From contig JABGRN010000004.1 of assembly GCA_018648265.1 (NCBI GenBank), positions 62,001 through 126,000 on the forward strand: 64,000 nucleotides of DNA, written 5' to 3'. The translations under genes were made by a program, and so were the position numbers. Under the pieces are notes generated by a model. It was not told the origin of the DNA. It was given only the letters and a program-made list of their open reading frames with translations, and did no database searches. The first letter of the stretch is position 1. The number at the start of each line of letters is the position of its first letter. Source of the DNA: Prolixibacteraceae bacterium. GTDB lineage: Bacteria; Bacteroidota; Bacteroidia; Bacteroidales; Prolixibacteraceae. Positions 1 through 33,963 of this stretch are shown one piece after another.

Positions 1-1266
1 TACACCGGATTAATAAATATTCCTCAAATACTAGTTTTTGTTACTTTAATTCTATCGATTGTTGTTTTGACAACCAGTGTAATTCCAATTTTAAAACTGA
101 TGAAAATTCAACCCAATCTGTTGTTGTCAAAAAATCTAAAAAGCAGAAATAAAAATAGTGTAACACAGTTATTTGTCACGCTACAATATGTTCTTTCCAT
201 TATTCTAATCATTTTAACCATTTCGATAATTCGCCAAACAAACTTTATGAAATATAAAGATTTGGGCTTTTCGGCTGAGAATATAATCGACCTGCGCATA
301 TACCATCTTAACAAAAGTCAGAAAACTGCACTTCGTGATGAACTTCGAAATAACCCTGGGATTATTAATCTTACGCTTACCGACAGAGATTATACGAGTG
401 GTCGTTCTTCAAATTTCATAAAAAACAAAAACGGGAAACTTTCTCAAACCAGATTATTAGATGTCGATAATAATTATATTTCTACGTTGAGTTTAAACCT
501 TACTCAAGGCGAAAATTTCACAGAAAGCAGTTCTACGAATCAATCTATAATTATAAATGAAAAGTTGTTGTCTTTTTTAGGTTTTAAAGAGGATGCAATT
601 GGGCAAATCGTTGATGTGGATGGACAAGATTATAGAATTACAGGAGTCGTTAAAGATTTTCATTACGATTCTATGAAAGAAGAAATTCAGCCGCTAATGT
701 TGTTGCCCCGAACGGAAGAAATTAAAAGGGGCAAATTCATTTTTATCAAATACAACCCTGCACAATTAAGTCAACTAATTCCATTTATTCAAAACACATG
801 GAAAAAAATTACACCGGATAAAGAACTGGATTTTCATTTCTGGGATGAACAACTTAACCAACGATATCAGGCAGAAGAAAGGTGGAGCCAAATAATTGCT
901 TACGCAGCAATAATTGCAATTATAATCTCATCGTTAGGACTTTTCGGATTAACATTAATGGTAATAAACCAACGTGTAAAAGAAATTGGCATTCGGAAAA
1001 TAAGTGGCGCAAAAATATCTGAAGTAATTACGATGTTGAATAAAGATTTTTTAAAAGGAGTAGCCATTGCTTTTGTAGTAGCCAGTCCGATTGCATATTA
1101 CGCCATGAATAAGTGGCTCGAAAACTTCGCCTACAAAACAACTTTAAGCTGGTGGATTTTTGCACTAGCAGGAGTGCTGGCTTTGGGAATTGCATTGTTA
1201 ACTGTTAGCTGGCAGAGCTGGAGGGCGGCAACGAGGAATCCGGTTGAGGCTTTGAGGTATGAATAG
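1..1266 (+). CDS. FtsX/MacB-type ABC permease P1, 5' end outside window
   Basis: Carboxy-terminal 421 residues of a permease of the MacB/FtsX (type VII ABC) superfamily. The frame is open from base 1, so the true start lies upstream. Visible parts are the last piece of the first membrane domain, a helix at about codons 57-79, the second periplasmic domain to about codon 298, a helix at 299-322, the cytoplasmic coupling motif KEIGIRKISGAK, two more helices and the ending NPVEALRYE. It lies 15 bp before P2 and is probably co-transcribed with it. Its tail differs slightly from the array consensus (ISGAKISEVITML, FLKGVAIAF), so it is a less homogenised member. The family identity is sure; the substrate cannot be read. 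Confidence 0.93.
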   Translation, partial: YTGLINIPQILVFVTLILSIVVLTTSVIPILKLMKIQPNLLLSKNLKSRNKNSVTQLFVTLQYVLSIILIILTISIIRQTNFMKYKDLGFSAENIIDLRIYHLNKSQKTALRDELRNNPGIINLTLTDRDYTSGRSSNFIKNKNGKLSQTRLLDVDNNYISTLSLNLTQGENFTESSSTNQSIIINEKLLSFLGFKEDAIGQIVDVDGQDYRITGVVKDFHYDSMKEEIQPLMLLPRTEEIKRGKFIFIKYNPAQLSQLIPFIQNTWKKITPDKELDFHFWDEQLNQRYQAEERWSQIIAYAAIIAIIISSLGLFGLTLMVINQRVKEIGIRKISGAKISEVITMLNKDFLKGVAIAFVVASPIAYYAMNKWLENFAYKTTLSWWIFALAGVLALGIALLTVSWQSWRAATRNPVEALRYE

Positions 1267-1281
1267 CAAAAAAACAACGGT

Positions 1282-3663
1282 ATGAAAAAACTAATATTTA
1301 TTTTTCGGTCACTAAGAAAAAATTTGAGACTTACCCTTATAAATGTTTTTTGCATGGCCTTAGGTCTTGCAGCAGCAGGAGTTATTCTAAGTTTTGTTTA
1401 CCAGGAATTTAATTACGACTCAGAGCATGTAAATTCAGAAACAATATTCCGAATAATTCAAAAAGATGGCGATCAGCAAAGTCCGTATACTTTTGCGCCA
1501 CTAGCCGAAGAACTAAAAGCGAATTTCCCGGAAATCGAAAATACAGTCAGAGTTAGTTTTTTTTACGGATACCTGGCCTGTTCAACATCAGAAAACAAAT
1601 TCAATGAGACCGGGGCTATTTTTGCCGACCCTGATTTTTTTAATCTATTTTCTTTTCCATTAATTAGCGGAAACAGCAAGGACTGCCTACTTTCTCCAAA
1701 CTCAGTTGTTATCTCGCAAAAGGCATCAAAAAAATACTTTGGCAACGAAGATCCTGTTGGGAAAAGTTTCAAAGTTGGCGAGCACAAAGAAATTATTGTA
1801 AGCGGTGTTTTTGAAGATTTTAAATCGAATTCAAATTTTCAGGGCGATTTAGTATTTCCGCTCGAAAAAATTTCAAAACTCACACAAATATGGATTGAAC
1901 CAAGCTGGAAACACGAAAGTGAAATTCATACGTTTGTATTGTTTTCAGATAATACCAACCCTGAGGAAATTTCAAAAAAATGCGAAAATTACATTTCAAA
2001 CTATATTGAGAATAGCAAACACGAACTTTCATTCCAACCCTTACAAAACATTCATGTTGAAAACCAGTTTTTCTGGGAATCGACACAACAAGCAAACGTT
2101 AGCTATTTGTTCATTTTTATTGCAGTTGCTGCAATAATTATATCTATTTCTGTTGCCAATTTTTTGTTTTTATATATCGGCACTACCTCGCAACGTACTG
2201 TAGATATAGGAATAAAAAAAGTGTGTGGGGCATCAAAATCAACTCTGTTTTTCGATTATTTAAAAGAAGTATTCGCCCTGTTTTTTATAAGTACTATAAT
2301 TGCCATTACTCTTTTTATTCTTTATAATTCTTTATTTGTAAAATCCTTTTCATTTCTTCCTCAAATCATCTTATTCGATTATAAACTTGGTATTCTTCTT
2401 TTTTCTATTCTAACTATAATTGCCTTATTGGCTGGAATTTATCCCTCCATGTTTTTATCATCGCATAAACCAGTTTCGCTTTTCAGCAGCAGTAAAAACA
2501 TTGGTATGGGAAGGTTGAAACTGGTCAACGTACTCGTAATCGCCCAATTTGCATTATGTATTACTTTAATAACCGGCACATTTGTAATGCATAAACAAAC
2601 CCGTTTTCTTGTAAAACAGGATATGGGATTTGCCAAAGAAGAACTGATTACAATTCCGCTGAATATGCATGTTGGCCATGGAATTTATAACGAAAGATTC
2701 AGTGTGTTTGCAGAGGAATTAAAAAAGAATTCGGGAATAAAAAACGTAACCCTTGGATTTTCAAGTCCGTCTTCATCGGGTATCGGTGAAAGTTTCCCCG
2801 ACTGGGAAGGGAAAACGGAAGACACAAAAGTTGAAATGTTCTGGTGTCCGGTTTCATTCAATTATTTTGAAACGCTGGGTCTGGAAATTGTTGAAGGACG
2901 TGCTTTTTCAGAAGAATTTCCCGGCGACGAGGTTAACTGGGATAAAAGAACATCAAACTATATAATAAATGAAAAAGCAGTTTCTGAAATGGGGATTGCC
3001 GATGCAATTGGAAAAGCATTTGAAATTTATGGTTTTAAAGGTCAAATAGTTGGCGTGGTTGAAGACTATAACTTTAAATCTTTACACACCGAAATTGCAC
3101 CAATGTTTTACCAGGTCAGCCCATTTTATTTAAATGAAATAATAGTAAGAGGCGATTTGAAAAATCCTGCAATTTTATCGGATATTGAAAATGTATGGGA
3201 CAAATTCGTACCTGAATATCCGCTTGACTTTGGATTTGTTTCCGATCAGATTTCAAAATTATACGAGCCTGAACAAAACCTTGCCAGCACTTTAAATATT
3301 TTTTCATTGATAGCAATTGCAATTGCCTGCATGGGATTGTTCACCTTAACCATCTTATCGATAAATCATCGTATCAAAGAAATTGGTATCCGCAAAGTTA
3401 ACGGAGCTAAAGTATCCGAAATCCTGAGTATGCTCAATAAAGACTTTATAAAATGGGTAGTCATAGCATTTGTGGTAGCCTGCCCAATTGCCTGGTACGC
3501 CATGGATAGGTGGCTCGAAGGCTTTGCCTACAAAACCACTTTAAGTTGGTGGATTTTTGCACTGGCAGGCGTGCTCGCTTTGGGTATTGCATTGTTAACG
3601 GTTAGTTGGCAAAGTTGGCGGGCGGCTACGAGGAATCCGGTGGAAGCTTTGAGACATGAATAA
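1282..3663 (+). CDS. FtsX/MacB-type ABC permease P2
   Basis: Inner-membrane ABC permease of 793 residues without its own ATPase. Predicted helices at about 19-42, 273-299, 327-350, 368-393, 414-436, 671-694, 721-741 and 755-776 enclose two periplasmic MacB_PCD-like domains (43-272 and 437-670). This is two MacB-like four-helix units fused in one chain. Coupling motifs follow helix 2 (DIGIKKVCGASK) and helix 6 (KEIGIRKVNGAK). The family works by moving lipoproteins, peptides or drugs in the envelope or by mechanotransmission, powered by a separate LolD/MacB-type ATPase. The ATG start is followed by a short basic segment and helix 1, as in the paralogues. The gap to P3 is 20 bp, which suggests an operon. 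The last residues are ALRHE instead of the usual ALRYE. Confidence 0.95.
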   Translation: MKKLIFIFRSLRKNLRLTLINVFCMALGLAAAGVILSFVYQEFNYDSEHVNSETIFRIIQKDGDQQSPYTFAPLAEELKANFPEIENTVRVSFFYGYLACSTSENKFNETGAIFADPDFFNLFSFPLISGNSKDCLLSPNSVVISQKASKKYFGNEDPVGKSFKVGEHKEIIVSGVFEDFKSNSNFQGDLVFPLEKISKLTQIWIEPSWKHESEIHTFVLFSDNTNPEEISKKCENYISNYIENSKHELSFQPLQNIHVENQFFWESTQQANVSYLFIFIAVAAIIISISVANFLFLYIGTTSQRTVDIGIKKVCGASKSTLFFDYLKEVFALFFISTIIAITLFILYNSLFVKSFSFLPQIILFDYKLGILLFSILTIIALLAGIYPSMFLSSHKPVSLFSSSKNIGMGRLKLVNVLVIAQFALCITLITGTFVMHKQTRFLVKQDMGFAKEELITIPLNMHVGHGIYNERFSVFAEELKKNSGIKNVTLGFSSPSSSGIGESFPDWEGKTEDTKVEMFWCPVSFNYFETLGLEIVEGRAFSEEFPGDEVNWDKRTSNYIINEKAVSEMGIADAIGKAFEIYGFKGQIVGVVEDYNFKSLHTEIAPMFYQVSPFYLNEIIVRGDLKNPAILSDIENVWDKFVPEYPLDFGFVSDQISKLYEPEQNLASTLNIFSLIAIAIACMGLFTLTILSINHRIKEIGIRKVNGAKVSEILSMLNKDFIKWVVIAFVVACPIAWYAMDRWLEGFAYKTTLSWWIFALAGVLALGIALLTVSWQSWRAATRNPVEALRHE

Positions 3664-3683: not shown

Positions 3684-5984
3684 ATGAGTAGATTAGTAAA
3701 ATTTTATTTTCGCTCACTTTTAAAAAGAAAAGTTTTATCTGTAATTACAATTGGTGGTTTTGCCATTAGTATGGCAGTTATTCTCTTACTATCTATTTAC
3801 GTTATCGAAGAAAAAAATGTTGACACAAATTACCCAAACTTCGACAATATTTATCGGATAAAAGTAGGAGAAAAGGCTGGGGTTCCTGAATCATTACTAG
3901 AAGAGGTTAACGGTAAAATTCCGGGTGTAGAAAACCTCTGTGTATATAGCTTACGTGAAAATTTGTTCGAAATAAATAACTCAAAACACAATGCAAAGTT
4001 TTTAGCGACTAACGATGAGTTTTTTGATATTTTCTCGTACGAGTACATTTATAAATCTGCCCCAACATTGAAAGTTGAAGACCATGTAATTCTTACACAT
4101 TCTTTTTGTAAAAAATGGTATGGAGATAAAAATCCTGTTGGTGAAACCTTTAAAAACGAATGGAACAAAGAATTAAAAATTGTTGGTGTAGTTACTGATC
4201 CACCAAACAATACCTCAATTGATTTTGATGTTATAGTTAGTTTAGAAAATGGGTTTGCTCACTGGGTAAACGACAAAGAAGACGACGTAAGACATCGTTT
4301 ATTCAAATCATTTATTCAACTTCAGGAAAATGTAGAACCTGAAACCGTTAGTTCTCAGCTTACTGAATTATTAAGCAGGTGGAATTTATTTAAAGATAAA
4401 CAAACCGTACTCCAATCTTTTCATCAGGTGTATTTCGATACCTCAGTGCAGGACGACCTGACACATTCAAATAAAGTAATGCTTTACTTGCTGGTTAGCA
4501 TTGGCGGAATTATTATGGTAATGACCATTTTTAACTACGTAAATCTCACCATTTCAACTGGGCAGCAACGAATTGGAGAAGTGGGTATTAAAAAAACTGC
4601 AGGTGCGGCTACGCGTAATATTTTTTCACAGTTTTTATCCGAAGCGTTATTGATTACTTTTTTATCATTTGGTTTAGCTGTCTTTCTTGCCATATTCTTT
4701 TCACCCATTTTATCAGAAATATTGGGTAAAGAAATTCTTATAAGCAATCTTTACCAAAAACCAGAGATATTTGCAACTGTTGTTCTCCTATTTTTTACAA
4801 CTGGAATAGTATCGGGCATTTCCCCGGCTATAACATTTTCGCGTTTAACTCCCCTGCAAATGATAACCAGAAAACATAAAATAAAAAGGAACAAAAATTA
4901 TGGGGCAATTGTAGCACTTCAATTTGTATTTACTATCTCCCTACTTATTTCTGTTTTTTTTATTGAAAAACAATTGGACTTTGTAAAACACAAAGAACTT
5001 GGTTTTAACAAAGAAATGATAGTGCGTGTACGGTTGAAAGGACAAGCACAATGGAAAGGACACGTTTTGAAAGAAAAACTACTTTCTAATCCACAAATTT
5101 TGTCGGCAGCAATAAGTCAGGGAAGTTTTATGGAATTTACAGGTTGGGATAGTAGAGAAATTGAAATAAATGGAGTAAAAAAGAATGTAGATTGGAGAAT
5201 GTTTGGTATCGATAATGATTTTATTGACCTCTTCGGACTAGAGATAGTAAAGGGAAGAAATATTGATAAAAAAATTACAAACTTCACTTGTTTGATTAAT
5301 GAAAAACTTCTTAAACACTATGGATGGGACAGTTTTGAAGGGAAAAAGATAATGCGTGGACAAGTAGAAGTGATTGGAGTTGTAAAAGATTTTCATTTTG
5401 ATGATTTACATCGCGAGATTGGTTTTTTGGTATTGACAGGCGGAGGTGGTGGAGATGTATTAAACATTAAAATTTCTGGTAATATACAAGAAAACCTGAA
5501 GTTTATAGAAAAGTGTTATGCCGAGTTCGACCCTTCATCTGATATGGATCTGGCATTTTATGATGACTGGATTCAAAACATGTATGAACAGGAAGAAAAA
5601 CAAGCAAGAGCGGTTAAAATATTTGCCTTGTTTGCCATAATAATTTCGTGCCTGGGCTTAATTGGTCTTATTGAACAAATAGCAACAAACAAAATCAAAG
5701 AAATTGGCATCAGAAAAGTTAACGGAGCCAAAGTATCCGAAATTCTCAGCATGCTCAACAAAGACTTTATAAAATGGGTAGCAATAGCATTTGTAGTAGC
5801 CTGTCCAATTGCATATTTCGCCATGAATAAATGGCTCGAAAACTTTGCCTACAAAACCACTTTAAGTTGGTGGATTTTTGCATTGGCGGGAATGTTGGCT
5901 TTGGGAATTGCACTGTTAACCGTTAGCTGGCAGAGTTGGCGAGCGGCGACTAGGAATCCGGTTGAGGCACTCAGATACGAATAA
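3684..5984 (+). CDS. FtsX/MacB-type ABC permease P3
   Basis: 766-residue paralogue with the same eight-helix, two-periplasmic-domain plan as P2 and no ATPase domain. Helix 1 lies at about 18-41. The first coupling loop reads EVGIKKTAGAATRN and the second KEIGIRKVNGAKVSEIL. I count only 5 differences to P4 in the last 95 residues, whereas the first 95 residues of P3 and P4 are hardly alignable. It is shorter than its neighbours because the second periplasmic domain is compact and carries a glycine run (TGGGGGD) near residue 583. It follows P2 by 20 bp and precedes P4 by 43 bp, so it probably belongs to the same transcript. Substrate unknown. Confidence 0.95.
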   Translation: MSRLVKFYFRSLLKRKVLSVITIGGFAISMAVILLLSIYVIEEKNVDTNYPNFDNIYRIKVGEKAGVPESLLEEVNGKIPGVENLCVYSLRENLFEINNSKHNAKFLATNDEFFDIFSYEYIYKSAPTLKVEDHVILTHSFCKKWYGDKNPVGETFKNEWNKELKIVGVVTDPPNNTSIDFDVIVSLENGFAHWVNDKEDDVRHRLFKSFIQLQENVEPETVSSQLTELLSRWNLFKDKQTVLQSFHQVYFDTSVQDDLTHSNKVMLYLLVSIGGIIMVMTIFNYVNLTISTGQQRIGEVGIKKTAGAATRNIFSQFLSEALLITFLSFGLAVFLAIFFSPILSEILGKEILISNLYQKPEIFATVVLLFFTTGIVSGISPAITFSRLTPLQMITRKHKIKRNKNYGAIVALQFVFTISLLISVFFIEKQLDFVKHKELGFNKEMIVRVRLKGQAQWKGHVLKEKLLSNPQILSAAISQGSFMEFTGWDSREIEINGVKKNVDWRMFGIDNDFIDLFGLEIVKGRNIDKKITNFTCLINEKLLKHYGWDSFEGKKIMRGQVEVIGVVKDFHFDDLHREIGFLVLTGGGGGDVLNIKISGNIQENLKFIEKCYAEFDPSSDMDLAFYDDWIQNMYEQEEKQARAVKIFALFAIIISCLGLIGLIEQIATNKIKEIGIRKVNGAKVSEILSMLNKDFIKWVAIAFVVACPIAYFAMNKWLENFAYKTTLSWWIFALAGMLALGIALLTVSWQSWRAATRNPVEALRYE

Positions 5985-6027: not shown

Positions 6028-8424
6028 ATGTTAAAACACTACATAAAAACTGCCTTCCGAAACTTCCGCAGCAACCGACTGATTTTTGCCGGAAGTATTG
6101 TAACCGTATTTCTTTGTGTACTTTGTATTTCGTTGCTGTTTACGTACGTACACAACGAACTTACCATGGATGACTTCCACAAAAACGAGGAGAATATTTT
6201 TGCAATGACAGTAAAACAATCTCCCGAAAGTCTGTTAGAACTTGCCCAAGCCTCCAGATATTTCGATTTTGAATACAAGAATTATCCCGAAATTGAAAGC
6301 CTTGTAAATATTGCAAAATACAATAAAGGAGAGTTAAAGTTTATATGTAATGAATCGACATTTTCACCCGAAGGACTTATCGCAGACAGCACTTTTTTTG
6401 AGGTTTTTGATTTCAATTTAAGTGTGGGAGATAAACATACAATTTTGTATAATTCATATGCAGCAATATTAACAAAAGACTTTGCTAAAAAGATTTTTGG
6501 GAAAGAAGATCCAATTGGGAAAAATATAAAAGTCATTTCCCGAAGAGAAAACTTGTTTACAGTTAAGGGAATAGTTGAATCACCTCCATCTAACAGTTCA
6601 ATTACTTTCGATTTTATATTGTCCTCAAATAATCGGGGTTTTAGCCGTTCTGGAGCAGATTTTATTCTTGTGAATAACAATTTTAATACTGACCAATTTT
6701 CAGGAAAAATAAAGCATATTGGACATATTCACAGTCAGTTTAAAAACAGTGTTGCCGGAGTAATGCCATTAAAAGAGATTTATTTTAAAAGTCAGAATAT
6801 CAAGCACAAACATATTTTCTCAAAATCAGGCGATAAAAAAAGCTTGAAAATCTTGTTTGCGATAATAGGTGTGATTTTTATTATTTCAGTACTTAATTTT
6901 TCAAACCTTCAAATTATAAATATTAATTCTTCAATTAAAAATATTGGTATTAATAAAATTACCGGTGCTGGGAGGATACATATTTTTTACCAAAAAATAA
7001 CCGAAATTTTATTGCTGATTTTAATCACTTCGATTTTAATTACAGTCGCCTTTCATTTTGTTTTATCTTATTTTAATCAATTTACAGGAGTGGAGCTTTC
7101 TCCTGATATTTGGAAGATACTTATTTTAAATATATCAATTCTTCTCATTCTTATTGGAGTTGCAATGGTATATCCTACCATTGTATTTTTAAGAATTCCT
7201 ATTACAAGAAGCCTGAAAAATCAGTTTTTTGCAGAAACCAAATTGGCAGGGCGAAAGGTAGTGGCAACTGTTCAGTTTGCACTTTCGTTTGTATTGTTAA
7301 TTGCCTCAATAGTGGTGGTTGAGCAGCTAGATTTAATGCTAAATAAAGACCTTGGGATAACTTGTACTAACACCATGCGTCTTGATTTTTTTCAAATGCC
7401 CCCACTTGGTAGTAGCAATGAAGAAAGACTGCAAAAAAGAGAGACCGATAATAAAAATTACCAGGTTGTAAATAATGAATTAAAATCACAAAGTTTTATA
7501 AAGGTACATGCACAAGGAATATCGCCATTAAAACCATCCAAAATGCCATGGAAACTAAAAGGTGGAGAAAAAGATTTTACTACTGAAAATAGCTTGTCAG
7601 TTACTCCTGAATATATCGAGCTATTGGACTTAACTATTGTTGAAGGGCGTTTTTTTGATAGAGAAAAGGACAAATCAAGGGGAAATAAAATAGTGATTAA
7701 TGAAGCGGCAAAAAAACTTTGGAACATTCATGATATTTCAAACGCCAAAATATTGAATAAATATTGGTCAATTCCACAAATGGGAGCAGAAGACGGATAT
7801 CAGGTTATTGGGGTTGTAAAGGACTTTAATTCAGAACATTTATCTGTTACCCCAAGACCGTTGATGATGTTGTATTTCGACGATAAATTTTTGGATTTTA
7901 TGATTCAGTTTGAATCCGGGTCGAAACAGGCAGGTATCAATTTTGTTCAGGAATTATTCAACAAGGTTAATCCAGAAGAAACTTTTCAATATTCTTTTCT
8001 TGATGATGAAATTGAAACACTTTATCAAAAGGAAAAACGTCTGAGCCAAATTTATATCCTTTTCACCATTATTGCTTTCCTAATTTCGGCGACTGGCTTG
8101 TTTGCCATTGCCCTTTACGACACAAAAAAACGTACTAAAGAAATCGGTATCCGAAAAGTAAACGGTGCCAAAGTTTCCGAAATACTGAGTATGCTCAACA
8201 AAGACTTTATAAAATGGGTAGCCATAGCATTTGTAGTTGCCTGCCCAATTGCATATTACGCCATGGATAAATGGCTCGAAAACTTCGCCTATAAAACTGC
8301 ACTTAGTTGGTGGATATTTGCTCTGTCAGGGGTGCTGGCTTTGGGAATTGCACTGTTAACGGTTAGTTGGCAGAGTTGGCGAGCAGCTACAAGGAATCCA
8401 GTTGAAGCATTGAGGTATGAATAA
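6028..8424 (+). CDS. FtsX/MacB-type ABC permease P4
   Basis: 798-residue permease of the same fused two-unit type. Helix 1 lies at about 20-42, and the first coupling loop is degenerate (NIGINKITGAGRI), while the second is the array consensus KEIGIRKVNGAK. The second periplasmic domain carries an extra polar stretch near residues 448-475 (SSNEERLQKRE and following). The tail is one of the most typical of the array, ending NPVEALRYE. It is the last gene of the tightly spaced group P1-P4: a 209-bp gap with a G/C-rich hairpin follows, so a transcript may end here. Substrate unknown. Confidence 0.95.
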   Translation: MLKHYIKTAFRNFRSNRLIFAGSIVTVFLCVLCISLLFTYVHNELTMDDFHKNEENIFAMTVKQSPESLLELAQASRYFDFEYKNYPEIESLVNIAKYNKGELKFICNESTFSPEGLIADSTFFEVFDFNLSVGDKHTILYNSYAAILTKDFAKKIFGKEDPIGKNIKVISRRENLFTVKGIVESPPSNSSITFDFILSSNNRGFSRSGADFILVNNNFNTDQFSGKIKHIGHIHSQFKNSVAGVMPLKEIYFKSQNIKHKHIFSKSGDKKSLKILFAIIGVIFIISVLNFSNLQIININSSIKNIGINKITGAGRIHIFYQKITEILLLILITSILITVAFHFVLSYFNQFTGVELSPDIWKILILNISILLILIGVAMVYPTIVFLRIPITRSLKNQFFAETKLAGRKVVATVQFALSFVLLIASIVVVEQLDLMLNKDLGITCTNTMRLDFFQMPPLGSSNEERLQKRETDNKNYQVVNNELKSQSFIKVHAQGISPLKPSKMPWKLKGGEKDFTTENSLSVTPEYIELLDLTIVEGRFFDREKDKSRGNKIVINEAAKKLWNIHDISNAKILNKYWSIPQMGAEDGYQVIGVVKDFNSEHLSVTPRPLMMLYFDDKFLDFMIQFESGSKQAGINFVQELFNKVNPEETFQYSFLDDEIETLYQKEKRLSQIYILFTIIAFLISATGLFAIALYDTKKRTKEIGIRKVNGAKVSEILSMLNKDFIKWVAIAFVVACPIAYYAMDKWLENFAYKTALSWWIFALSGVLALGIALLTVSWQSWRAATRNPVEALRYE

Positions 8425-13661: not shown

Positions 13662-13674
13662 ATTGCCCGCTTTT

Positions 13675-13703
13675 GCACCCTCTAACTCCCTGAAGGGAGA
13701 ACC
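13675..13703 (+). repeat. Palindromic intergenic repeat (CTCCCTGAAGGGAG type)
   Basis: Copy 13 bp after the P6 stop, nearly identical to the one after P7 at 16619. It is the left boundary of the segment shared by the two DUF559 cassettes. Confidence 0.8.
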
Positions 13704-13759
13704 GCAAAAGCTACTGACGATGAATTTTGAACTGATAATAACTTGAAATACAGACTCAA

Positions 13760-13782
13760 AGCCCCTTCATGGGTTTGGGGTA
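13760..13782 (+). repeat. Palindromic intergenic repeat upstream of DUF559 gene
   Basis: AGCCCCTTCATGGGTTTGGG then GT, 13 bp before the DUF559 start codon. Its twin at 16704 has the perfect CCCCTTCAGGGG centre; here one base change (CATGGG) breaks the palindrome. With the element overlapping the gene's stop codon it brackets the nuclease gene as direct repeats. Confidence 0.75.
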
Positions 13783-13795
13783 AAAAGAACAAAAG

Positions 13796-14265: not shown

Positions 14266-16605
14266 ATGATAAAAGAAAAAATAATGCAATCGTTTAAAAA
14301 TATGAGAGGTAGCAAATCATATCTTTTCATAAATGTAGGTGGATTAGCAATAGCATTTTCAGTTTCTATACTCATAATGCTCTTTGTAATTAATGAATAT
14401 AATTTCGACAAATTCAACACAAACGGGCAAAGAGTTTACCGGATTGAAGAAGGCGAAGACAACCAGGTGCCACTGGCTGTAACCAGAATTTCAGAAGAAT
14501 CTTTCCCAGAGATTGAACAAGCTGTGGTTATAAAATCTTTAAGCGACCCCTGGTTCAGATACGAACAAAACTTTTTTGAAATAGAAGACTTCTGTTTTTC
14601 AGATAATTCATTTATCGATGTGTTTTCCATCCCATTTGTTTCAGGAAATCCGGAGACTGCTCTTGATGCGCCTTATACTATCGTTTTATCAGAATCCGTT
14701 GCAAAAAGGATTTTCGGGGATAAAAATCCCATTGGGGAGCAGATTAATTTCAGGAATGAGAGCGATTATACGGTAACGGGTGTAATAAAAGATTTGCCCG
14801 ATTTTCATTTGCCAGCAAAAGCTATTGCTTCATTTAAATCGGTTGAAGACCAATTTAATCTTTCGGATGAAACCTGGAACTGGGGATTGGTTTCATACGT
14901 TTTGCTTGCCGATAATCATGATATAGATTTTCTTGAGGAAAAGATGAACAAGCATTTCACCAACAATGACAATTGGAATGTTAAAAAACCAAATTTTAAA
15001 TTACGCGCATTCAATAATATTTATCTTGACACTGATACCTATGCAAACGATGAAACTAAACACGGAAGCAAGGCTCTTTTAATTACTTTAATTATTGTTG
15101 CCATTTTTATTTTACTTATTGCAAGTATTAATTTTATTAATCTTACCATTTCGAGGGGACTTAAAAAAGCAAACGAAATTAATATTCGTAGAATTCTTGG
15201 AAGTTCAAAAACGGCTATCATTTTTCAGTACATGATCGACTCCGTAATTTTATGTACAATTTCAATTCTTCTCGCTTTAGCAATTGTATTTTTCTCTCTC
15301 AATTCATATCAAGATTTAATAGGCAGGGAGTTAAATATTCTAAGCATGTTAAATATCAAATATATTCTTTTAATTGTTGTCGGAATAGTAAGTCTAGGAA
15401 TTATATACGGTTTATTTCCCTCGTGGTTTTTAACTAAAGTTGCTACCGGTAAAAGTGGAAAAGGAAGTCAGACGGGTGCAAAGAATTCCAGATTTAATGC
15501 GGGTTTAATCACTTTTCAGTATGTTATATCGATTATACTAATTAGCGGTACAATTATTACTTATAAACAGTTACTATTTACAAGCAATAGCAATCTTGGC
15601 TTCAATAAAGAACAAGTATTGAGTGTTAATTTGGATCCTTCGTTAAAGGCCAATTTAGCCACTTTTAAATCGAAATTACTGGAAAATCCAAACATAAGCG
15701 GAGTCTCATTTATTTCAGATGATATTACTATGCTTAAACAATATTCTAACGCAGTACAAGTCGATGAGGAGCAGTATATATTTAAATATGGCCTTATCGA
15801 CCCTGAGTTTATTCCACTGCTGGATATTGAACTCGTACAGGGTGAAAATTTTTCGCGGGACATCCAAAGTCAAATGTTCCAAAGGGAATCGGGTGGAGGT
15901 TATATTCTTAACGAGGCAGCATGGAATATTTTAAAACAATCTAAAACTAAGGATGCTGGTTATAATATAAACGGCAGGACATTACTCGGTGTAATAGAAA
16001 ATTTTCATTTTGAATCTTTTCACAATAAAATAGACCCGATGATTTTATATTGGGCACCTAGCGATTACCTCAACAAGGCTTTACTGAAACTAAGTGCAGG
16101 AAACACTGCTCAAACCATGAATTATATTGATGAGATATTTAAAGAGTTAGCTCCGCAAAGCTTATTCAAGTATCAATTTATTGACGAAGAATTTAATCAT
16201 TTATACACTACCGATAGGATTATGGTGAGGCTGTTGGGCATTTTTTCAATGTTAGCCATATTAATTGCCACACTTGGTATAATTTCACTTTCAACTATGG
16301 CAGCAGAAAACCGTACCAAAGAAATTGGCATTCGCAAAGTAAACGGCGCAAAAATCGCTGAAATACTTACCATGCTAAATAGAGACTTTGTTAAATGGGT
16401 TGCTTTAGCTTTTGTTGTGGCGCTTCCAATTGCTTACTACGTAATGACAACGTGGCTCGAAAATTTCGCCTACAAAACCAATTTAAGTTGGTGGATTTTT
16501 GCCTTGGCTGGGGTACTTACTTTGGGAATGGCATTGTTAACGGTTTCGTTTCAAAGCTGGCGGGCGGCTACACGAAATCCCGTTGAGGCATTGAGGTATG
16601 AATAA
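14266..16605 (+). CDS. FtsX/MacB-type ABC permease P7
   Basis: 779-residue permease of the common plan. Two start codons are possible, ATG at 14266 and ATG at 14284 (MQSFKNMRGSKSYLF); both keep the full helix 1. First coupling loop EINIRRILGSSKTAI, second KEIGIRKVNGAKIAEIL. The second periplasmic domain contains QMFQRESGGGYILNEAAW. The tail has ALAFVVALPIAYYVMTTW, a small departure from the consensus, then returns to it and ends NPVEALRYE. It lies 50 bp after DUF559 copy 1, and DUF559 copy 2 starts 134 bp downstream, so it is bracketed by the two cassettes. Substrate unknown. Confidence 0.95.
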   Translation: MIKEKIMQSFKNMRGSKSYLFINVGGLAIAFSVSILIMLFVINEYNFDKFNTNGQRVYRIEEGEDNQVPLAVTRISEESFPEIEQAVVIKSLSDPWFRYEQNFFEIEDFCFSDNSFIDVFSIPFVSGNPETALDAPYTIVLSESVAKRIFGDKNPIGEQINFRNESDYTVTGVIKDLPDFHLPAKAIASFKSVEDQFNLSDETWNWGLVSYVLLADNHDIDFLEEKMNKHFTNNDNWNVKKPNFKLRAFNNIYLDTDTYANDETKHGSKALLITLIIVAIFILLIASINFINLTISRGLKKANEINIRRILGSSKTAIIFQYMIDSVILCTISILLALAIVFFSLNSYQDLIGRELNILSMLNIKYILLIVVGIVSLGIIYGLFPSWFLTKVATGKSGKGSQTGAKNSRFNAGLITFQYVISIILISGTIITYKQLLFTSNSNLGFNKEQVLSVNLDPSLKANLATFKSKLLENPNISGVSFISDDITMLKQYSNAVQVDEEQYIFKYGLIDPEFIPLLDIELVQGENFSRDIQSQMFQRESGGGYILNEAAWNILKQSKTKDAGYNINGRTLLGVIENFHFESFHNKIDPMILYWAPSDYLNKALLKLSAGNTAQTMNYIDEIFKELAPQSLFKYQFIDEEFNHLYTTDRIMVRLLGIFSMLAILIATLGIISLSTMAAENRTKEIGIRKVNGAKIAEILTMLNRDFVKWVALAFVVALPIAYYVMTTWLENFAYKTNLSWWIFALAGVLTLGMALLTVSFQSWRAATRNPVEALRYE

Positions 16606-16618
16606 AATGCCCGCTTTT

Positions 16619-16647
16619 GCACCCTCTGACTCCCTGAAGGGAGAACC
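16619..16647 (+). repeat. Palindromic intergenic repeat (CTCCCTGAAGGGAG type)
   Basis: 13 bp after the P7 stop. Left boundary of the second DUF559 cassette; differs from the copy at 13675 only at a base in CTCTGACTCCC versus CTCTAACTCCC. Confidence 0.8.
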
Positions 16648-16703
16648 GCAAAAGCTACTGACGATGAATTTTGAACTAATATTAATTTGAAATACAGACT
16701 CAA

Positions 16704-16726
16704 AGCCCCTTCAGGGGTTTGGGGTA
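16704..16726 (+). repeat. Palindromic intergenic repeat upstream of DUF559 copy 2
   Basis: AGCCCCTTCAGGGGTTTGGG then GT with intact CCCCTTCAGGGG centre, 13 bp before the second DUF559 start. Direct repeat of the right-hand element at 17139. Confidence 0.8.
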
Positions 16727-16739
16727 AAAAGAACAAAAG

Positions 16740-17159
16740 ATGGCAATTAGTGATAATGTTTCGATGTTTTATAGTGCTAAACCTCACATTTTTGAGAAAG
16801 CAAAAGCTTTGCGAAATAATATGACGAGTTCAGAATTAAAACTTTGGGAGCATTTAAAAGGCAAAAAGATGTTAGGGCTACGATTTCGCCCTCAACATCC
16901 AATAGACATTTTCATCGCCGATTTTTATTGCCACCCCATTAAATTAGTTATTGAAATTGATGGTGGAATTCATCAAACAATAGAACAAAAAGAGTATGAC
17001 ATTGGTAGAACAGCAGAAATAAATAATTGGGGAATTGAAGTGATTCGTTTTACCAATGAAGAAATTGAAAATAGTATTAAACAAGTATTAAAAGAAATAA
17101 AAGAAAAATGCATCAAACGTCAAGCGGAGATTTCTCATAGTCCCCTTCAGGGGATTTAG
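16740..17159 (+). CDS. DUF559 endonuclease-like protein, copy 2
   Basis: 139-residue paralogue of the gene at 13796, with the same D61 and E72-x-D74 residues and the same SPLQGI ending provided by a palindromic repeat. Residues 1-88 are identical to copy 1 and the DNA of this part shows no difference; from residue 89 (G instead of E) the two diverge clearly (NEEIENSIKQVLKEIKEKC versus NNCVENNIEQVIKEIEQIC). Such an abrupt border suggests a recent partial conversion or a hybrid formed by recombination. The leader of about 134 bp is also nearly identical. The gene lies between P7 and P8 and is followed by a decayed permease tail. Confidence 0.88.
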   Translation: MAISDNVSMFYSAKPHIFEKAKALRNNMTSSELKLWEHLKGKKMLGLRFRPQHPIDIFIADFYCHPIKLVIEIDGGIHQTIEQKEYDIGRTAEINNWGIEVIRFTNEEIENSIKQVLKEIKEKCIKRQAEISHSPLQGI

Positions 17160-17343: not shown

Positions 17344-19719
17344 ATGTTTAAACATTTTATTAAAATAAGCTTACGAAACATTTTAAAAAACAAGGTAAAT
17401 ACTACTCTTAATGTTGCAAGTTTAGCCCTGGGAATAACTATCTTATTGTTAATAGCATCCTATTCTTTAAATGAATTAAGTGTAGATAAATTTCACTCGA
17501 AAGAAGAGCGCATTTATAAAATAAGTTATGGCAATTCAAGCTTAACTCCCGGACCATTGAATAGCTTTTTGAAAAATCAGTTTCCTGAAATAGAGCACAC
17601 CACTCACATCGAAACCCGTCAGTTAAATATGTTTTCTCCGGTGGTTCAATTCGATAATAATTCATTCGAAATAGAGGGATATTATTCGGCAGACCCGGGG
17701 TTTTTCGAAATTTTTGATTTTGAAGTGGTTCAAGGAAATATTCAAACCGCCATTCAATCTCCATTTTCGTTGATACTTACGGAGAGTGAATCGGCCCGGA
17801 TTTTTAAACTTGCCAATCCAATTGGTGAATCTGTTACCTGGAAAGGCAGGCAAGATTTTACATTTACAGTGAGGGCAATTGTAAAAGATTTGCCATCAAG
17901 TTCATCCATTCAATTTAACGGATTAGTTTCCGATGCATCGGTAAACGGGATGGGAGGAAGCCTCTATTCTGAAGATTGGGGCTACACAGTTTATGAAAGT
18001 TATCTGCTTTTAAAACCCAATGTTGACGAAGAAGTATTAACCGAAAAACTACGAAGTAATCTTATTGCACATTACGCCAGCAATTTATCAAACAAGGCAA
18101 GTGCCAACGATGCCGAATTGAATCCACTTTCGCTTCATCGTTTAAAGAGTGTCTATTTCGATAAAAGTCTAATCAACGATACTACCAACCGTGGGAATTT
18201 AATGTTGGTAAATATTCTTTTGGTTATTGGCGGAATTATAATGTTGTTGTCGCTTATTAACTATGTCAACCTCACTACTGCAAGCACCGCTAACCGAACC
18301 AAAGAAATAGGTGTGCAAAAACTAATTGGTTCAAGTCGAAGAGCACTCATTTTTCAGTACCTCTCCGAAACTACCATTGTTAGTTTATTTGCCGTGGTTA
18401 TAGGAGCACTTATTTCGTTTGTTTTTATTGAACAATATGGCGATTTTATGAATGTAAGCAACGGGTTAAAATTTCAGCCATGGGTATTTCTATTACTTAT
18501 CCCATTTATTCTGTTTCTTGGTTTTGTTGCAGGAATATATCCTGCTCTTTTGCTTTCATCAAAAAAAGCGATTGACATTATTAAAATGAAGGCAGACAAT
18601 AAAAAAGGAGGAGGCAGTCTTCGTCGCTCACTAATAATTTTTCAGTTTTCGGTGACGATTGTTCTGATTGCAGCAACTTTTTTAATCTTCAAACAAGTAA
18701 ATTATATAAAAGACAAAGACCTTGGAATACCCGACGAACAAGTGGTTTATGCCAAGCTGCCTTTTCAAATATTAGCTGGTAAAAAAGAGATTTTACGCGA
18801 ACGCTTGCAAACAATTCCTGAGATTGAAGAAATTGCTTTTTCAAGTAATATGTTTGGTGGAATTGAGGGTCTGAATAGTCAGGAAATAGACGGCAAAACA
18901 TTGAACTTTGCCACAACCTGGGTAGATGCCGAGTTTATCGACCTTTACAATTTACAACTTGTTGACGGGCGATTCTTCTCGAAAGATTTAAAAACAGACG
19001 TCAATACAACTGCACTCATTAATGAAGCAGCTGTAAGGGAATTTGGTGTTGAAAACCCATTTGAATTAAATATTCGAATACCTGGAGGAAAAGCAAAAGT
19101 AGTTGGTATTGTAAAAGATTTCAACTATAAATCGCTGCACAACAGGATTGAACCACTTACAATTATTTATTTGCCGAGGCAGGGACAATATGCAAACTTG
19201 AAAATTGCGGGAAATAACTTTTCAGAAACTTTAGGAAAAATAGACAATGTTTGGAATGAACTCGCTCCTGGTTTTCCTTTTTCTTACTATTTTCTTGACC
19301 AGAGTTTTGAAAAGCTTTACAAAAAGGATGAACAAATGGCTAAAGCTGTTTCATTGTTTTCCCTCATCGCTATAGCAATTGCGGTACTGGGAATACTAGG
19401 CCTATCCATGTTTTTAGCAGAAAGCCGAACCAAACAAATCGGCGTCAGAAAAGTTAATGGTGCCAGAATATCAGAAATACTAATCATGCTAAATAAAGAC
19501 TTTGTAAAATGGGTTGCCATCGCTTTTGTTGTTGCCAGCCCAATTGCTTACTACATAATGAATAAGTGGCTTGGAAATTTTGCATACAAAACTTCACTTA
19601 GTTGGTGGATTTTTGCCTTGGCAGGAGTACTGGCTTTGGGCATTGCACTGTTAACAGTTAGTTGGCAAAGCTGGAGAGCAGCTACCAAAAATCCGGTGGA
19701 GGCACTCAGATACGAATAA
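17344..19719 (+). CDS. FtsX/MacB-type ABC permease P8
   Basis: 791-residue permease; helix 1 at about 19-42, first coupling loop KEIGVQKLIGSSRRALI, second KQIGVRKVNGARISEIL, so both loops are close to the consensus but not equal to it. The tail ends ATKNPVEALRYE. It opens a second tightly spaced group: P9 starts 15 bp and P10 30 bp after its predecessor, so P8-P9-P10 are probably one transcript. The 184 bp upstream carry a decayed permease tail and an inverted palindromic repeat. Substrate unknown. Confidence 0.95.
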   Translation: MFKHFIKISLRNILKNKVNTTLNVASLALGITILLLIASYSLNELSVDKFHSKEERIYKISYGNSSLTPGPLNSFLKNQFPEIEHTTHIETRQLNMFSPVVQFDNNSFEIEGYYSADPGFFEIFDFEVVQGNIQTAIQSPFSLILTESESARIFKLANPIGESVTWKGRQDFTFTVRAIVKDLPSSSSIQFNGLVSDASVNGMGGSLYSEDWGYTVYESYLLLKPNVDEEVLTEKLRSNLIAHYASNLSNKASANDAELNPLSLHRLKSVYFDKSLINDTTNRGNLMLVNILLVIGGIIMLLSLINYVNLTTASTANRTKEIGVQKLIGSSRRALIFQYLSETTIVSLFAVVIGALISFVFIEQYGDFMNVSNGLKFQPWVFLLLIPFILFLGFVAGIYPALLLSSKKAIDIIKMKADNKKGGGSLRRSLIIFQFSVTIVLIAATFLIFKQVNYIKDKDLGIPDEQVVYAKLPFQILAGKKEILRERLQTIPEIEEIAFSSNMFGGIEGLNSQEIDGKTLNFATTWVDAEFIDLYNLQLVDGRFFSKDLKTDVNTTALINEAAVREFGVENPFELNIRIPGGKAKVVGIVKDFNYKSLHNRIEPLTIIYLPRQGQYANLKIAGNNFSETLGKIDNVWNELAPGFPFSYYFLDQSFEKLYKKDEQMAKAVSLFSLIAIAIAVLGILGLSMFLAESRTKQIGVRKVNGARISEILIMLNKDFVKWVAIAFVVASPIAYYIMNKWLGNFAYKTSLSWWIFALAGVLALGIALLTVSWQSWRAATKNPVEALRYE

Positions 19720-19734: not shown

Positions 19735-22140
19735 ATGATACTGCACTTTTTAAAATCTGCTGTCAGGAACTTAAAGAAAAATAAGTTCCTTTCAATTATT
19801 AACATTCTAGGATTAACCACAGGGTTAACTATCTGTATGTTAATTATGTATTATGTTAGTCATGAAAAAAGTTACGACCATTTTCACAGTAAGCACGATC
19901 GGATTTATCGTTTAAGATATGAAAGGACAGATAAAGACGGTGGGGCTGTTCGTTTTGCATCTTGTTGCCCACCGGCAGGGATTCATATTCGGGAAAAGTT
20001 CTCCGATGCCGAAAAGGTAGCACGAATATTTAGATATAAGGCTTCTGTTTCGTACGAGGAAAACAGGTACATCGAAGAGAGGATGTTTTTTGCCGAGCCT
20101 GAGTTTTTGGAGATATTCAATTTTAAATTTATTAAAGGAAACCCGGAAAGGTTAAACGAACCGAATATTGCTTTTATTTCAGAAAGTACAGCCCGCAAAT
20201 ATTTTGGTTCAATAAACCCGGTAGGGTTACCAATTAGTATCGACAAAAAAACCGATTACAGGGTTGCAGGCATTTTCGAGGATGTTCCACATAATTCTCA
20301 TATTAAGTTTGATATTTTATTGTCGTATAAAAATTTGCTGAATATTTATGGTAAAGAGGTTGAAAACTCGTGGGGAGATACAGGATGGTTTACCTATTTG
20401 CTCCTTGGTCCAGGGGTTAATCCAAACGTTTTTGAAAGTAAGTTGCCACCATTGGTTGAAAAAGAGTTTGGCGAGGTTTTAAGACATTACAATCTTACCC
20501 TCAACCTCGTTTTACAACCGCTTACAGATATTCATCTGACATCAAATTTTATGCAGGAATTTGAAGTAAACGGGAATGCCAATACCGTTAAATATCTTTC
20601 ACTAATTGCAATTTTGGCAATAATTATGGCATGGGTTAATTACATTAATTTATCAACTGCACGCTCGCTTTCAAGAGCACATGAAGTTGGACTGCGAAAA
20701 GCAAGCGGTGCAAACCGATCTCAACTTGTTATTCAGTTTTTTCTTGAAACGATATTAACTAATATTGCAGCCATTTTTTTAACATTAATATTGATTGCAC
20801 TACTTTTAATTCCTTTTAGTGCATTTACAAACATACCAGCCGATTATAGAATATATATACAATTCTGGTTCTGGAAATTGATTATAATCCTATTTATTTC
20901 GGGAACTGTTCTTTCAGGTATTTACCCAGTATTTATTCTTATCTCTTTCAATCCTGCTGATGTTCTTAAAAATAGATTCAATAAATCCATCAAAGGCATT
21001 GAAACCAGAAAAGTTTTAGTAGTTACTCAGTTTATAATGGCGATTGGGTTGATGGCTTTTACAATTTCAATATACAAGCAACTTTCTTTTATGCGAAAGA
21101 ATGAACTTGGTTTTTCGATGGAGCAAAAACTGGTGGTGAGATTGCCCAGGGTTCGTCAGGCTGGATTCGAAAGCAAAACAGAGGCATTCAGAAATACAAT
21201 ATTATCAAATCCTTCAGTAAATAAAATGTGTGTTGGAACCGAAGTTCCGGGCAAACAAATTTACTGGGATGCCGGTGCGATAAAAAGAGTTGGTTCTGAT
21301 GAAAACAAGAATTACCGAATTCTTGGTGTAGATTACGATTACATTGATTTATTCAAATTGGAATTAGCTGCTGGACGGAATTTTTCAAGAGATTTTCCTT
21401 CCGATTCCAGTGCTTTAATTCTTAATGAAAAAGCTGTTGAGTGGATGGGGTTTGAAAGCACACAGTCAGCATTGGGAAAACAAGTTGATTACTGGGGAAA
21501 TATATATAATGTTATTGGTGTTGTAAAAAATTACCATCAGGAATCGGTAAAACAACATTTTTTGCCACAAATATTTCGATTCTTGCCCTATGGAAGAGAT
21601 GTGAGAGGAAATTTTACATTTGAAATCTCAGACACAAATCCGCAAACAGTAATTACCGACATTAGAAATGATTATAACGAATTCTTTCCTAATAATCCTT
21701 TTGAATATTTTTTTCTGGATGAATATTATAACCAACAATACAAAACTGACGAGCTGTTCGGAAAGGTGATTGGCTTGTTTTCGTTTTTAGCCATTTTTAT
21801 TACATGTTTGGGAATATTTGGCCTTGCCACATTTATTGTAATACAACGGTTAAAAGAAATTGGAGTTCGGAAAGTAAATGGAGCAAATGTTACCGATATA
21901 TTGGTTTTACTGAATAAAGATATGGTAATCTGGGTATTGATTTCTATTGTAATTGCCAGTCCTGCCACCTATTATTTTATGATTATTTGGCTCGAAAGTT
22001 TCGCCCTCAAAACCACACTAAGTTGGTGGATTTTTGTCCTGGCAGGGGTAATTGCACTCGGAATTGCACTGTTAACAGTTAGTTGGCAGAGTTGGCGGGC
22101 TGCAACAAGAAATCCGGTTGAGGCACTGAGGTATGAATAA
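19735..22140 (+). CDS. FtsX/MacB-type ABC permease P9
   Basis: 801-residue permease; helix 1 at about 17-40, first coupling loop HEVGLRKASGANRSQLV, second KEIGVRKVNGANVTDIL. The first part of its tail is its own (LLNKDMVIWVLISIVIASPATYYFMIIWLES); from TTLSWWIF onward it is the array consensus. This border inside the tail again looks like a conversion tract shorter than in P2-P4. The first periplasmic domain has a pair of neighbouring cysteines (FASCCPPAG, about residue 76), unusual in the array. Substrate unknown. Confidence 0.95.
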   Translation: MILHFLKSAVRNLKKNKFLSIINILGLTTGLTICMLIMYYVSHEKSYDHFHSKHDRIYRLRYERTDKDGGAVRFASCCPPAGIHIREKFSDAEKVARIFRYKASVSYEENRYIEERMFFAEPEFLEIFNFKFIKGNPERLNEPNIAFISESTARKYFGSINPVGLPISIDKKTDYRVAGIFEDVPHNSHIKFDILLSYKNLLNIYGKEVENSWGDTGWFTYLLLGPGVNPNVFESKLPPLVEKEFGEVLRHYNLTLNLVLQPLTDIHLTSNFMQEFEVNGNANTVKYLSLIAILAIIMAWVNYINLSTARSLSRAHEVGLRKASGANRSQLVIQFFLETILTNIAAIFLTLILIALLLIPFSAFTNIPADYRIYIQFWFWKLIIILFISGTVLSGIYPVFILISFNPADVLKNRFNKSIKGIETRKVLVVTQFIMAIGLMAFTISIYKQLSFMRKNELGFSMEQKLVVRLPRVRQAGFESKTEAFRNTILSNPSVNKMCVGTEVPGKQIYWDAGAIKRVGSDENKNYRILGVDYDYIDLFKLELAAGRNFSRDFPSDSSALILNEKAVEWMGFESTQSALGKQVDYWGNIYNVIGVVKNYHQESVKQHFLPQIFRFLPYGRDVRGNFTFEISDTNPQTVITDIRNDYNEFFPNNPFEYFFLDEYYNQQYKTDELFGKVIGLFSFLAIFITCLGIFGLATFIVIQRLKEIGVRKVNGANVTDILVLLNKDMVIWVLISIVIASPATYYFMIIWLESFALKTTLSWWIFVLAGVIALGIALLTVSWQSWRAATRNPVEALRYE

Positions 22141-22170
22141 CCGTATTTGTATTTAAACTAATAACCGAAT

Positions 22171-24540
22171 ATGTTTAAAAATTATTTTAAAATAGCCCTT
22201 CAGAATTTAGTCAATAATAAGGTATTTACGTTCATCAATCTTGCCGGATTTGCAATTGGAATGTCATGCGTTATTCTAATTGCATTGTGGATTCATGACG
22301 AATTAAACTATGATACTTTCAATGAAAATAAAAATTCGATTTATAGAATCACAACATTTTATGACAAATATGATTGGGAAGGATTGGCTTTGACGCCGGC
22401 ACCTCTGGCTCCAATAGCCGTCAATGAAATGCCAGAGGTTATCGATGCAGCAAGAATATATACATGTCCGCCAGTAACAATGCAAGTGGGAGACAATATA
22501 TTTTACGAGAACAAAGGAATCTTAGCAGACCATTCCATTCTTAATATTTTTTCGTTTCCACTAATTTATGGAAATAAACAGTCCGTATTAGAAAACAATA
22601 ACAGTATTGTAATCTCCCAAAAATTAGCATTTAAATATTTCGACAATGAAAATCCTGTTGGTAAAAGTATTATTTGCGATGGCGAGGCGTTTATTATTGA
22701 CGCAGTATTAAAAGATATCCCTCAAAATTCACACTTACAATTTGATTTTATTGTCCCTTTCAAGCTGATGGGAGAACTACCTTGGGGAAACATGAGTTTA
22801 CAAACATATATCCAACTTAATAATAATACCAACCCTGATATTCTGGAAGATAAGCTTACGGCAATTGCCAAAAATAATTCTTCTCAAATACAGCAAGGAG
22901 CCAAATTTAAACTACAACCCTTAAAAGAAATTCATTTAGATGCTAAAAACAAGCATGCTTACACTATTACTGGAAATCTCAATAATGTTTATTTATTTAC
23001 GGCTATAGCTTTCTTTATCTTGTGTATTGCAAGTTTTAATTTCATAAATCTAACAACAGCCAAGGCAGAATTTCGAAGTAGAGAAATAGGAATAAGAAAG
23101 ATTATTGGTGCTAATAAATTACAACTTAAGTATCAATTCTTTACAGAAACAATTTTACTAACATTCATTTCGCTTTGTATTGCAGTCGGTTTGGCAAATA
23201 TTTTCCTCCCCATATTTAATCAATTAGCAAATAAACAATTAATACTTAATCTGTTCGAACCCAGAGTGTTATTATCCTTGCTTTTTGTTTCTTTTATAAC
23301 AGGCATTTTATCAGGGGCATATCCTGCGTTTTATCTATCCTCATTTAATCCATTGTTTGTCTTGAAGAATAAATTGTCAACAACAAGGGGAAAAAACATC
23401 AGTTCGATTTCAACCAGAAAGATATTGGTTGTATTGCAATTTATGTTCTCAATAGTGCTAGTTATAAGTATTATAAGCATTAACAATCAATTCAAATATA
23501 TACAACAAAAGGATTTGGAATTTAACAAAGAAGGTATAATTTATATTCCTTTAAAAAATGAAATTGGGAATCAATACGGTGCATTTAAAAATGAGTTGTT
23601 AAAACAATCAAATATAAAATCGGTTAGTGCCCAGAACTATTTATGTGCAATTACAAATAGAAGAACCACTAATTTTGACTGGGAAAACCGGGAAGAAGGG
23701 AAGAGAATAGACATGCTTGTTTCTCAGGTCGATTATGATTTTTTCAGAACTTTAGAATTGGATGTTACTCAGGGCCGAGCATTTTCCCCCAATTTTAGTA
23801 CGGATAAAAAGAATGCATTTATTGTAAATGAAGCAGCAATAAAAGCTATTGGAATAGAAAAACCTATCGGTAAATATTTTTCATATGATAATAAAAAAGG
23901 TAAAATAATTGGAGTTGTAAAAAATGCTAACCTCGAATCGTTACATAAGAAAATTGAACCAAGGGTTTTTCATTTGATTAATAATTTTTCATCGATAACC
24001 AGTGAGGGTATTGCCTTGGTTAAAATAAATAGTGCAGAGGCTTCGAAAACCATAAAAGACATTGAATCTGCTTATTATGATTTGTGTAAAAATGCCCCTT
24101 TTGAATATCATTTCCTTGATCAAGCGTATGATAATCTATACAAATCGGAACAGCGTACCGGAAAAATTATTGGTTATTTTACTGCACTAGCTATCCTTAT
24201 TTCATGTCTTGGACTATTGGGGCTAACAATAATAAGTTCAAAACGTCGTACCAAGGAAATCGGAATCCGCAAAGTAAACGGCGCAAAAGTTTCCGAAATT
24301 CTTACAATGCTCAACAAAGACTTTATAAAATGGGTAGCCATTGCTTTTGTAGTAGCCTGCCCAATTGCATTCTTCGCCATGAACAAATGGCTCGAAAACT
24401 TCGCCTACAAAACCACTTTAAGTTGGTGGATATTTGCGCTGGCAGGTTTGCTTGCTTTGGGAATTGCACTGTTAACGGTTTCGTTTCAAAGTTATAAAGC
24501 TGCAACACGAAATCCAATTGAATCTCTCCGATACGAATAG
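22171..24540 (+). CDS. FtsX/MacB-type ABC permease P10
   Basis: 789-residue permease closing the array; helix 1 at about 17-40, first coupling loop REIGIRKIIGANKLQLK, second KEIGIRKVNGAKVSEILTML. Tail of consensus type with the FQSYKAATRNPIESLRYE variant; the IES spelling also occurs in the fragment R4 just downstream, so R4 probably derives from this gene or a close relative. 221 bp separate it from the hybrid two-component regulator, which may control the group. Substrate unknown. Confidence 0.95.
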   Translation: MFKNYFKIALQNLVNNKVFTFINLAGFAIGMSCVILIALWIHDELNYDTFNENKNSIYRITTFYDKYDWEGLALTPAPLAPIAVNEMPEVIDAARIYTCPPVTMQVGDNIFYENKGILADHSILNIFSFPLIYGNKQSVLENNNSIVISQKLAFKYFDNENPVGKSIICDGEAFIIDAVLKDIPQNSHLQFDFIVPFKLMGELPWGNMSLQTYIQLNNNTNPDILEDKLTAIAKNNSSQIQQGAKFKLQPLKEIHLDAKNKHAYTITGNLNNVYLFTAIAFFILCIASFNFINLTTAKAEFRSREIGIRKIIGANKLQLKYQFFTETILLTFISLCIAVGLANIFLPIFNQLANKQLILNLFEPRVLLSLLFVSFITGILSGAYPAFYLSSFNPLFVLKNKLSTTRGKNISSISTRKILVVLQFMFSIVLVISIISINNQFKYIQQKDLEFNKEGIIYIPLKNEIGNQYGAFKNELLKQSNIKSVSAQNYLCAITNRRTTNFDWENREEGKRIDMLVSQVDYDFFRTLELDVTQGRAFSPNFSTDKKNAFIVNEAAIKAIGIEKPIGKYFSYDNKKGKIIGVVKNANLESLHKKIEPRVFHLINNFSSITSEGIALVKINSAEASKTIKDIESAYYDLCKNAPFEYHFLDQAYDNLYKSEQRTGKIIGYFTALAILISCLGLLGLTIISSKRRTKEIGIRKVNGAKVSEILTMLNKDFIKWVAIAFVVACPIAFFAMNKWLENFAYKTTLSWWIFALAGLLALGIALLTVSFQSYKAATRNPIESLRYE

Positions 24541-33959: not shown

Positions 33960-33963
33960 AATT

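Follow-up and report, generated by a model that had tools for sequence, protein, structure and literature searches.

Results

The permease locus

The stretch analysed here, referred to as the window, comprises 64,000 nucleotides (C43:62001-126000) of the 5.58 Mb genome of a marine Draconibacterium (family Prolixibacteraceae). It opens inside a tandem array that begins upstream of the window and consists of 16 same-strand permease genes (C43:46041-86540), which is longer than the array of ten described from the window in an earlier note, whose gene calls and coordinates were right. Features within the window are listed in Table 1. The entire P1 gene occupies C43:60861-63266, and a further member, A5 (C43:55797-58166), lies about 3.8 kb upstream of the window. 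Also upstream of the window, the first periplasmic head of A3 (C43:50861-53215) contains an in-frame TAG.

Table 1. Permease and ATPase genes of the window, with the positions of the 3' tail segments
Feature	Position	Strand	Basis	Tail and remarks
P1, permease	67..1266	+	ORF, MacB_PCD + FtsX	shared tail 973-1263; gene cut by window edge
P2, double-FtsX permease	1282..3663	+	ORF, domains, alignment	shared tail 3370-3660
P3, permease	3684..5984	+	ORF, alignment	shared tail 5691-5981
P4, permease	6028..8424	+	ORF, alignment	shared tail 8131-8421
P5, permease without shared tail	8634..10976	+	alignment, domains	family 5
P6, permease	11235..13661	+	ORF, alignment	tail 13368-13658, variant FQSYKAA
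P7, permease	14266..16605	+	ORF, alignment	tail 16312-16602, variant FQSWRAA
P8, permease	17344..19719	+	ORF, alignment	shared tail 19426-19716
P9, permease	19735..22140	+	ORF, alignment	tail 21847-22137, shares mainly last ~50 codons
P10, permease, last of array	22171..24540	+	ORF, alignment	tail 24247-24537, variant FQSYKAA
B1, separate permease	52678..55065	+	domains, alignment	tail 54772-55062; family 0
ABC ATPase gene	55213..55878	+	ABC_tran 1.4e-34
B2, separate permease	56036..58435	+	domains, alignment	diverged tail 58142-58432

Two further permeases, B1 and B2, lie beyond the array, and the ABC ATPase gene listed with them is the probable motor of these adjoining permeases; a like ATPase gene precedes the last permease in most relatives. 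A second ABC ATPase gene is located just upstream of the array (C43:45208-45906), and before it stand two ORFs which, as read by eye, we take to resemble a TolC-type outer-membrane protein and a MacA/HlyD-type adaptor. P10 and B1 are separated by about 28 kb of unrelated genes (24541-52677). Since B1 belongs to a family that sits within the array in other species, this gap looks like a genome-specific insertion or split. It includes a gene for a hybrid sensor protein directly after the array (24762-27839; TPR, HisKA, HATPase, response regulator and AraC-type HTH) and a set of tandem near-duplicates (32264-36074), in which 32877-33908 is paired with 34070-35119 and 32264-32689 is a short copy of 35130-36074.

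Most of the permeases that were scanned contain two MacB_PCD and two FtsX stretches each, and this double occurrence of both domain types places them in the MacB/FtsX superfamily. The ATPase domain is absent from them, and the ATPases are separate genes, so that the "ATPase/membrane module" previously assigned to the constant end was a misnomer. A structure model of P2 (mean pLDDT 84) found its best fold match in E. coli YbbP (E 7e-21, TM 0.50), followed by MacB (E 2e-14). P2 is thus related in fold to YbbP (of YbbAP), MacB and LolC/LolE, yet with only 12-16% identity, and MacB differs further in having a fused ATPase. The best NCBIfam matches were ADOP (TIGR03434) and DarB (NF038008), which are equal in length to the array permeases and share their two MacB_PCD + FtsX halves; however, the scores, 207-275 bits for ADOP, are far below the respective curated cut-offs of 622 and 700 bits, and unlike these entries the array stands behind an ABC ATPase gene. 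Large paralogous sets annotated as ADOP have been described in Bacteroidota; two Dyadobacter, for instance, have 28 and 33 copies (PMC11573002). We found no description in the literature of tail exchange in ADOP or DarB permeases.

The shared tail

The last ~97 residues are nearly constant in all ten permeases of the window except P5, with P9 sharing the last part only. Mean pairwise column identity ranges from 0.08 to 0.37 across the first ~825 alignment columns and then rises through 0.55, 0.64, 0.69, 0.75 and 0.91 in the last five 25-column bins. The bodies are, as reported before, strongly diverged, although the remark that they hardly align was slightly overstated, for identity is about 25% from end to end (median 26% within the window genome). 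P3 and P4 differ, as had been counted, at exactly 5 of 95 tail residues, and the DNA of the P2 tail is 86% identical to those of P3 and P4. The variant FQSYKAA was correctly attributed to P6 and P10, but P7 carries FQSWRAA rather than the WQSWRAA ascribed to it. P5 retains only the final NPVEALRYE of the shared sequence and still has both MacB_PCD and both FtsX domains, in agreement with the proposal that it lacks the tail but keeps the fold; its family is also tail-less in other Draconibacterium. In A5, the sequence changes abruptly at about 40 codons before its end. The last 120 nt of P1 and A5 are 92% identical, and the DNA upstream of that is only ~55% identical.

By hydropathy, and counting in residues from the C-terminus, TM6 spans ~127-97, TM7 ~72-52 and TM8 ~41-15. 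The tail therefore begins directly after TM6 and comprises the EIGIRKVNGA loop, TM7, TM8 and the cytosolic end, with no periplasmic head within it. We take the EIGIRKVNGA loop to be the coupling helix, by analogy with MacB.

Silent sites in the window genome

At positions where two paralogues of the window genome agree in amino acid, the codon is also identical in a share of 0.50 over the last 40 codons, where codon usage predicts 0.34; for the body the observed share is 0.44 and the predicted one 0.43. The earlier assertion of likeness at the DNA level is borne out to the extent that codon identity exceeds chance, but the signal is modest: median dS is 1.34 for the last 46 codons and 1.8-2.0 or saturated for the body, and no pair is near zero. 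Taken alone, the codon test in this genome is only suggestive. A GENECONV-like permutation test gave no significant result for pairs lying wholly inside the window, and significance was reached only by pairs with A5 (p 0.0125 and 0.0175); likewise, no near-identity tract bounded on both sides was seen within the window itself. Silent identity of tails in the window genome was 0.237 among themselves and 0.159 with non-orthologous tails of other species, but when genomes were pooled the corresponding values were 0.144 and 0.141. The pooled comparison at first argued against conversion, a question that was settled by examining orthologs, and it implies either that exchange is slow, or happened long ago, when set against the pace of silent substitution, or that it is not confined to one genome. 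To describe homogenisation in the window as "ongoing" was, on these values and on the permutation results, an overstatement.

Orthologs, trees and exchange tracts

Since no ortholog of the window species exceeds 79% body identity, the key test was run on relatives. From the arrays of 11 genomes (the window genome and ten relatives) we took 188 full permeases and called ortholog pairs from the body alone. In the 49 close pairs that carry the shared tail, identity of silent codons fell from 0.705 in the body to 0.516 in the last 40 codons, and dS rose from 0.67 to 1.26 as dN went from 0.062 to 0.053. Twelve close pairs without the shared tail gave 0.712 for the body and 0.726 for the tail. When only the closest pair per family was considered, silent identity dropped from 0.756 to 0.507 in shared-tail families (15 of 16 families, p 9e-5); in 7 control families the change from 0.720 to 0.681 was not significant (p 0.81). 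The P5 family is among the controls and shows no drop in its tail.

Trees were built from sliding 40-codon windows of 32 genes in 10 orthologous families. Counting codons from the stop, 2 of the 10 families were monophyletic at 0-40, 3 at 20-60, 6 at 40-80 and 7 at 60-100, and every family formed a clade in each window from 80 up to 180 codons. Forcing the ten families to be monophyletic was rejected at 0-40 (ΔlnL 67.6, AU p 0.001) and 20-60 (p 0.0009) and was not rejected by the AU test from 60-100 codons onward; these sliding windows serve as the body control, in place of a first control that was too sparse (2 families). Applied to single families on 120 nt, the AU test was mostly not significant (0.025-0.27), and two shared-tail families, F5 and F6, retain tail orthology. 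In summary, tails lose orthology and bodies retain it, with breakpoints that vary from roughly 20 to 120 codons before the stop. Equal silent divergence in tail and body, or concordant trees for the two parts, had been proposed as signs of purifying selection on protein only. We observed instead that orthologs lose likeness at silent sites in the tail only, and that the tail and body trees disagree.

Direct tracts of exchange were also found. One gene pair of relative G003 shares ~170 near-identical nucleotides with diverged DNA on both flanks, and two adjacent genes of G011, whose bodies are 25% identical, hardly differ in their last ~150 nt. The G002 gene at 180709-183087 loses likeness to its G009 ortholog in the tail (0.81 to 0.39), and over its last 180 nt it agrees at 0.88-0.93 with a paralogue in its own genome, at 185646-188036. 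More generally, of 154 genes, 46 found their best match over the last 120 nt in a paralogue of the same genome (expected 24.4, sd 4.9) and 17 in an ortholog, and for nucleotides 180-291 the counts were 34 and 46, respectively; the farther from the stop, the more the closest sequence tends to be an ortholog and not a paralogue. Outside the genus, stretches of near-identity at the 3' end, joined to bodies 25-28% identical, occur in Prolixibacter bellariivorans (L037), Puteibacter (L109) and a Salinivirgaceae MAG (L074), the tract in the last being bounded at both ends. Loci elsewhere in the Bacteroidota have tails built on this plan, yet not uniform ones. By far the largest set of these genes was found in G011 (contigs C120, C122, C22 and C77), where the stretches read contained 65 matches to the tail and 58 full permeases.

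A separate repeat lies behind P6 and P7. A block of ~540 nt (13659-14215 and 16603-17159), 93-100% identical over most of its length, encodes a DUF559 ORF of 139 aa (13796-14215 and 16740-17159), and DUF559-like ORFs are also found in the array spacers of G002, G004 and G011. The block (13661-14215 and 16605-17159) was considered as a carrier of tail exchange and rejected as a separate duplication, because the high identity starts at the stop codons and the preceding 60 nt are 78% alike.

Discussion

Non-allelic recombination between paralogues, confined to their 3' ends, is well supported as the explanation of these observations. Selection alone is excluded by the loss of silent-site identity between orthologs, by the conflict between tail and body trees and by the direct tracts. 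In our judgement the locus is very probably a tandem array of ADOP/MacB-like double-FtsX permeases in which recombination is restricted to the last ~40-100 codons, the segment exchanged between genes being put at the final 120-240 bases. Of the original suggestion of gene conversion limited to the 3' ends, 3'-limited recombination was upheld by those three kinds of evidence, but they do not separate conversion from crossover.

Crossover at the tails as the source of the pattern, with unequal recombination moving head cassettes so that a gene takes the tail of its new downstream context, we hold to be possible, at somewhat under even chances. In 33 of the 38 close shared-tail pairs, the gene that follows downstream is a different one. 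The upstream spacer travels with the gene (identity 0.46 against a background of 0.33, with two at 0.78 and 0.88), and the downstream spacer does not (0.34). Moreover, the tail is present in 71 of 74 single-genome families but in 8 of the 13 families that occur in at least four genomes (Fisher p 0.0015). These three observations suit crossover at the tails. Gene order in the middle of the array differs strongly among species, while certain families recur at its ends, namely family 4 on the left and families 0, 7 and 1 on the right. However, the G003 tract, being internal and flanked by diverged DNA, requires conversion or a double exchange and suits conversion; tails of the previous genes are only somewhat above background (0.82 against 0.74, last 20 codons); and the neighbour test weakens from p 0.0001 to p 0.075 once half-tail families count as controls. 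We take it that conversion and crossover both occur.

Purifying selection on the protein alone would have the tail dock to one shared ATPase with no recombination at all. Such a view accommodates a tail consensus common to genus and family, the low dN of the tail, the retention of the final residues even in P5 and the median dS of 1.34 among tails of the window genome. Yet protein selection cannot raise silent divergence between orthologs in the tail over that in the body, solely in shared-tail genes, nor make tail trees reject the body families, nor leave ~170 bases nearly the same in two genes whose bodies are ~25% identical. As sole cause it is contradicted and improbable; as a component that keeps the protein constant it stays, since with dS near 1 recombination alone would not keep a genus-wide consensus. 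Very improbable is a mere acceleration of silent change in the shared tail, through a mutation hot spot or codon effect: this fits the raised dS of ortholog tails but is already contradicted by families without the shared tail, whose tails show no such rise, and by long identical stretches among paralogues of one genome, which faster change cannot produce.

Recombination at the 3' ends could arise as follows. One common ABC ATPase probably drives the array permeases, and the need for all of them to work with few ATPases may lead selection to keep the ATPase-facing end constant, the part meeting the ATPase presumably being the coupling helix, TM7-TM8 and the cytosolic end. With heads too diverged to recombine, the tail would be the only homology left that RecA could still use, and exchange in the tail would in turn renew its likeness and keep that homology usable. 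Some events would be conversions; others are probably unequal crossovers that change the following gene, so that whole head cassettes may be gained, lost or reordered. As a tentative extension, which we rate as possible rather than probable, the shared 3' end may act as a general joint (~50 codons of homology) by which any head cassette with such a tail moves in, out and along the array, within and between Prolixibacteraceae. The locus would then resemble an integron, as a permease island whose left and right ends recur and whose middle changes fast, but without a dedicated recombinase.

Comparison with known recombining systems

Programmed shuffling of the shufflon, vls or pilE type involves one expressed gene with silent donors, or a recombinase. 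Contrary to silent donor copies, nearly all array genes are full-length open reading frames, and no recombinase was recognised, on reading by eye, among the ORFs listed in the array spacers. In concerted evolution of prokaryotic paralogues, as presented in PMC6053082, gene conversion keeps copies alike over long times and paralogues are closer to each other than orthologs are, whereas here the 3' end alone takes part and the rest is ~25% identical; the words "permease", "transporter" and "Bacteroidetes" are absent from the text of that paper. For Rhs, PMC2935791 describes paralogues whose constant and variable parts follow separate evolutionary courses, and it proposes homologous recombination as the cause, but there the variable part is the C-terminal tip and here it is the N-terminal ~700 residues, the end being constant; unlike the displaced tips of Rhs, no arrays of dissociated heads were seen here. 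The permease arrays thus offer a clear bacterial case in which ~25% identical paralogues exchange short 3' DNA often enough to erase orthology there. They suggest how one motor may serve many diverging permeases, and they carry the warning that phylogenies of such permeases blend two histories. If the joint model is true, these arrays would represent a recombinase-free way to shuffle transporter repertoires.
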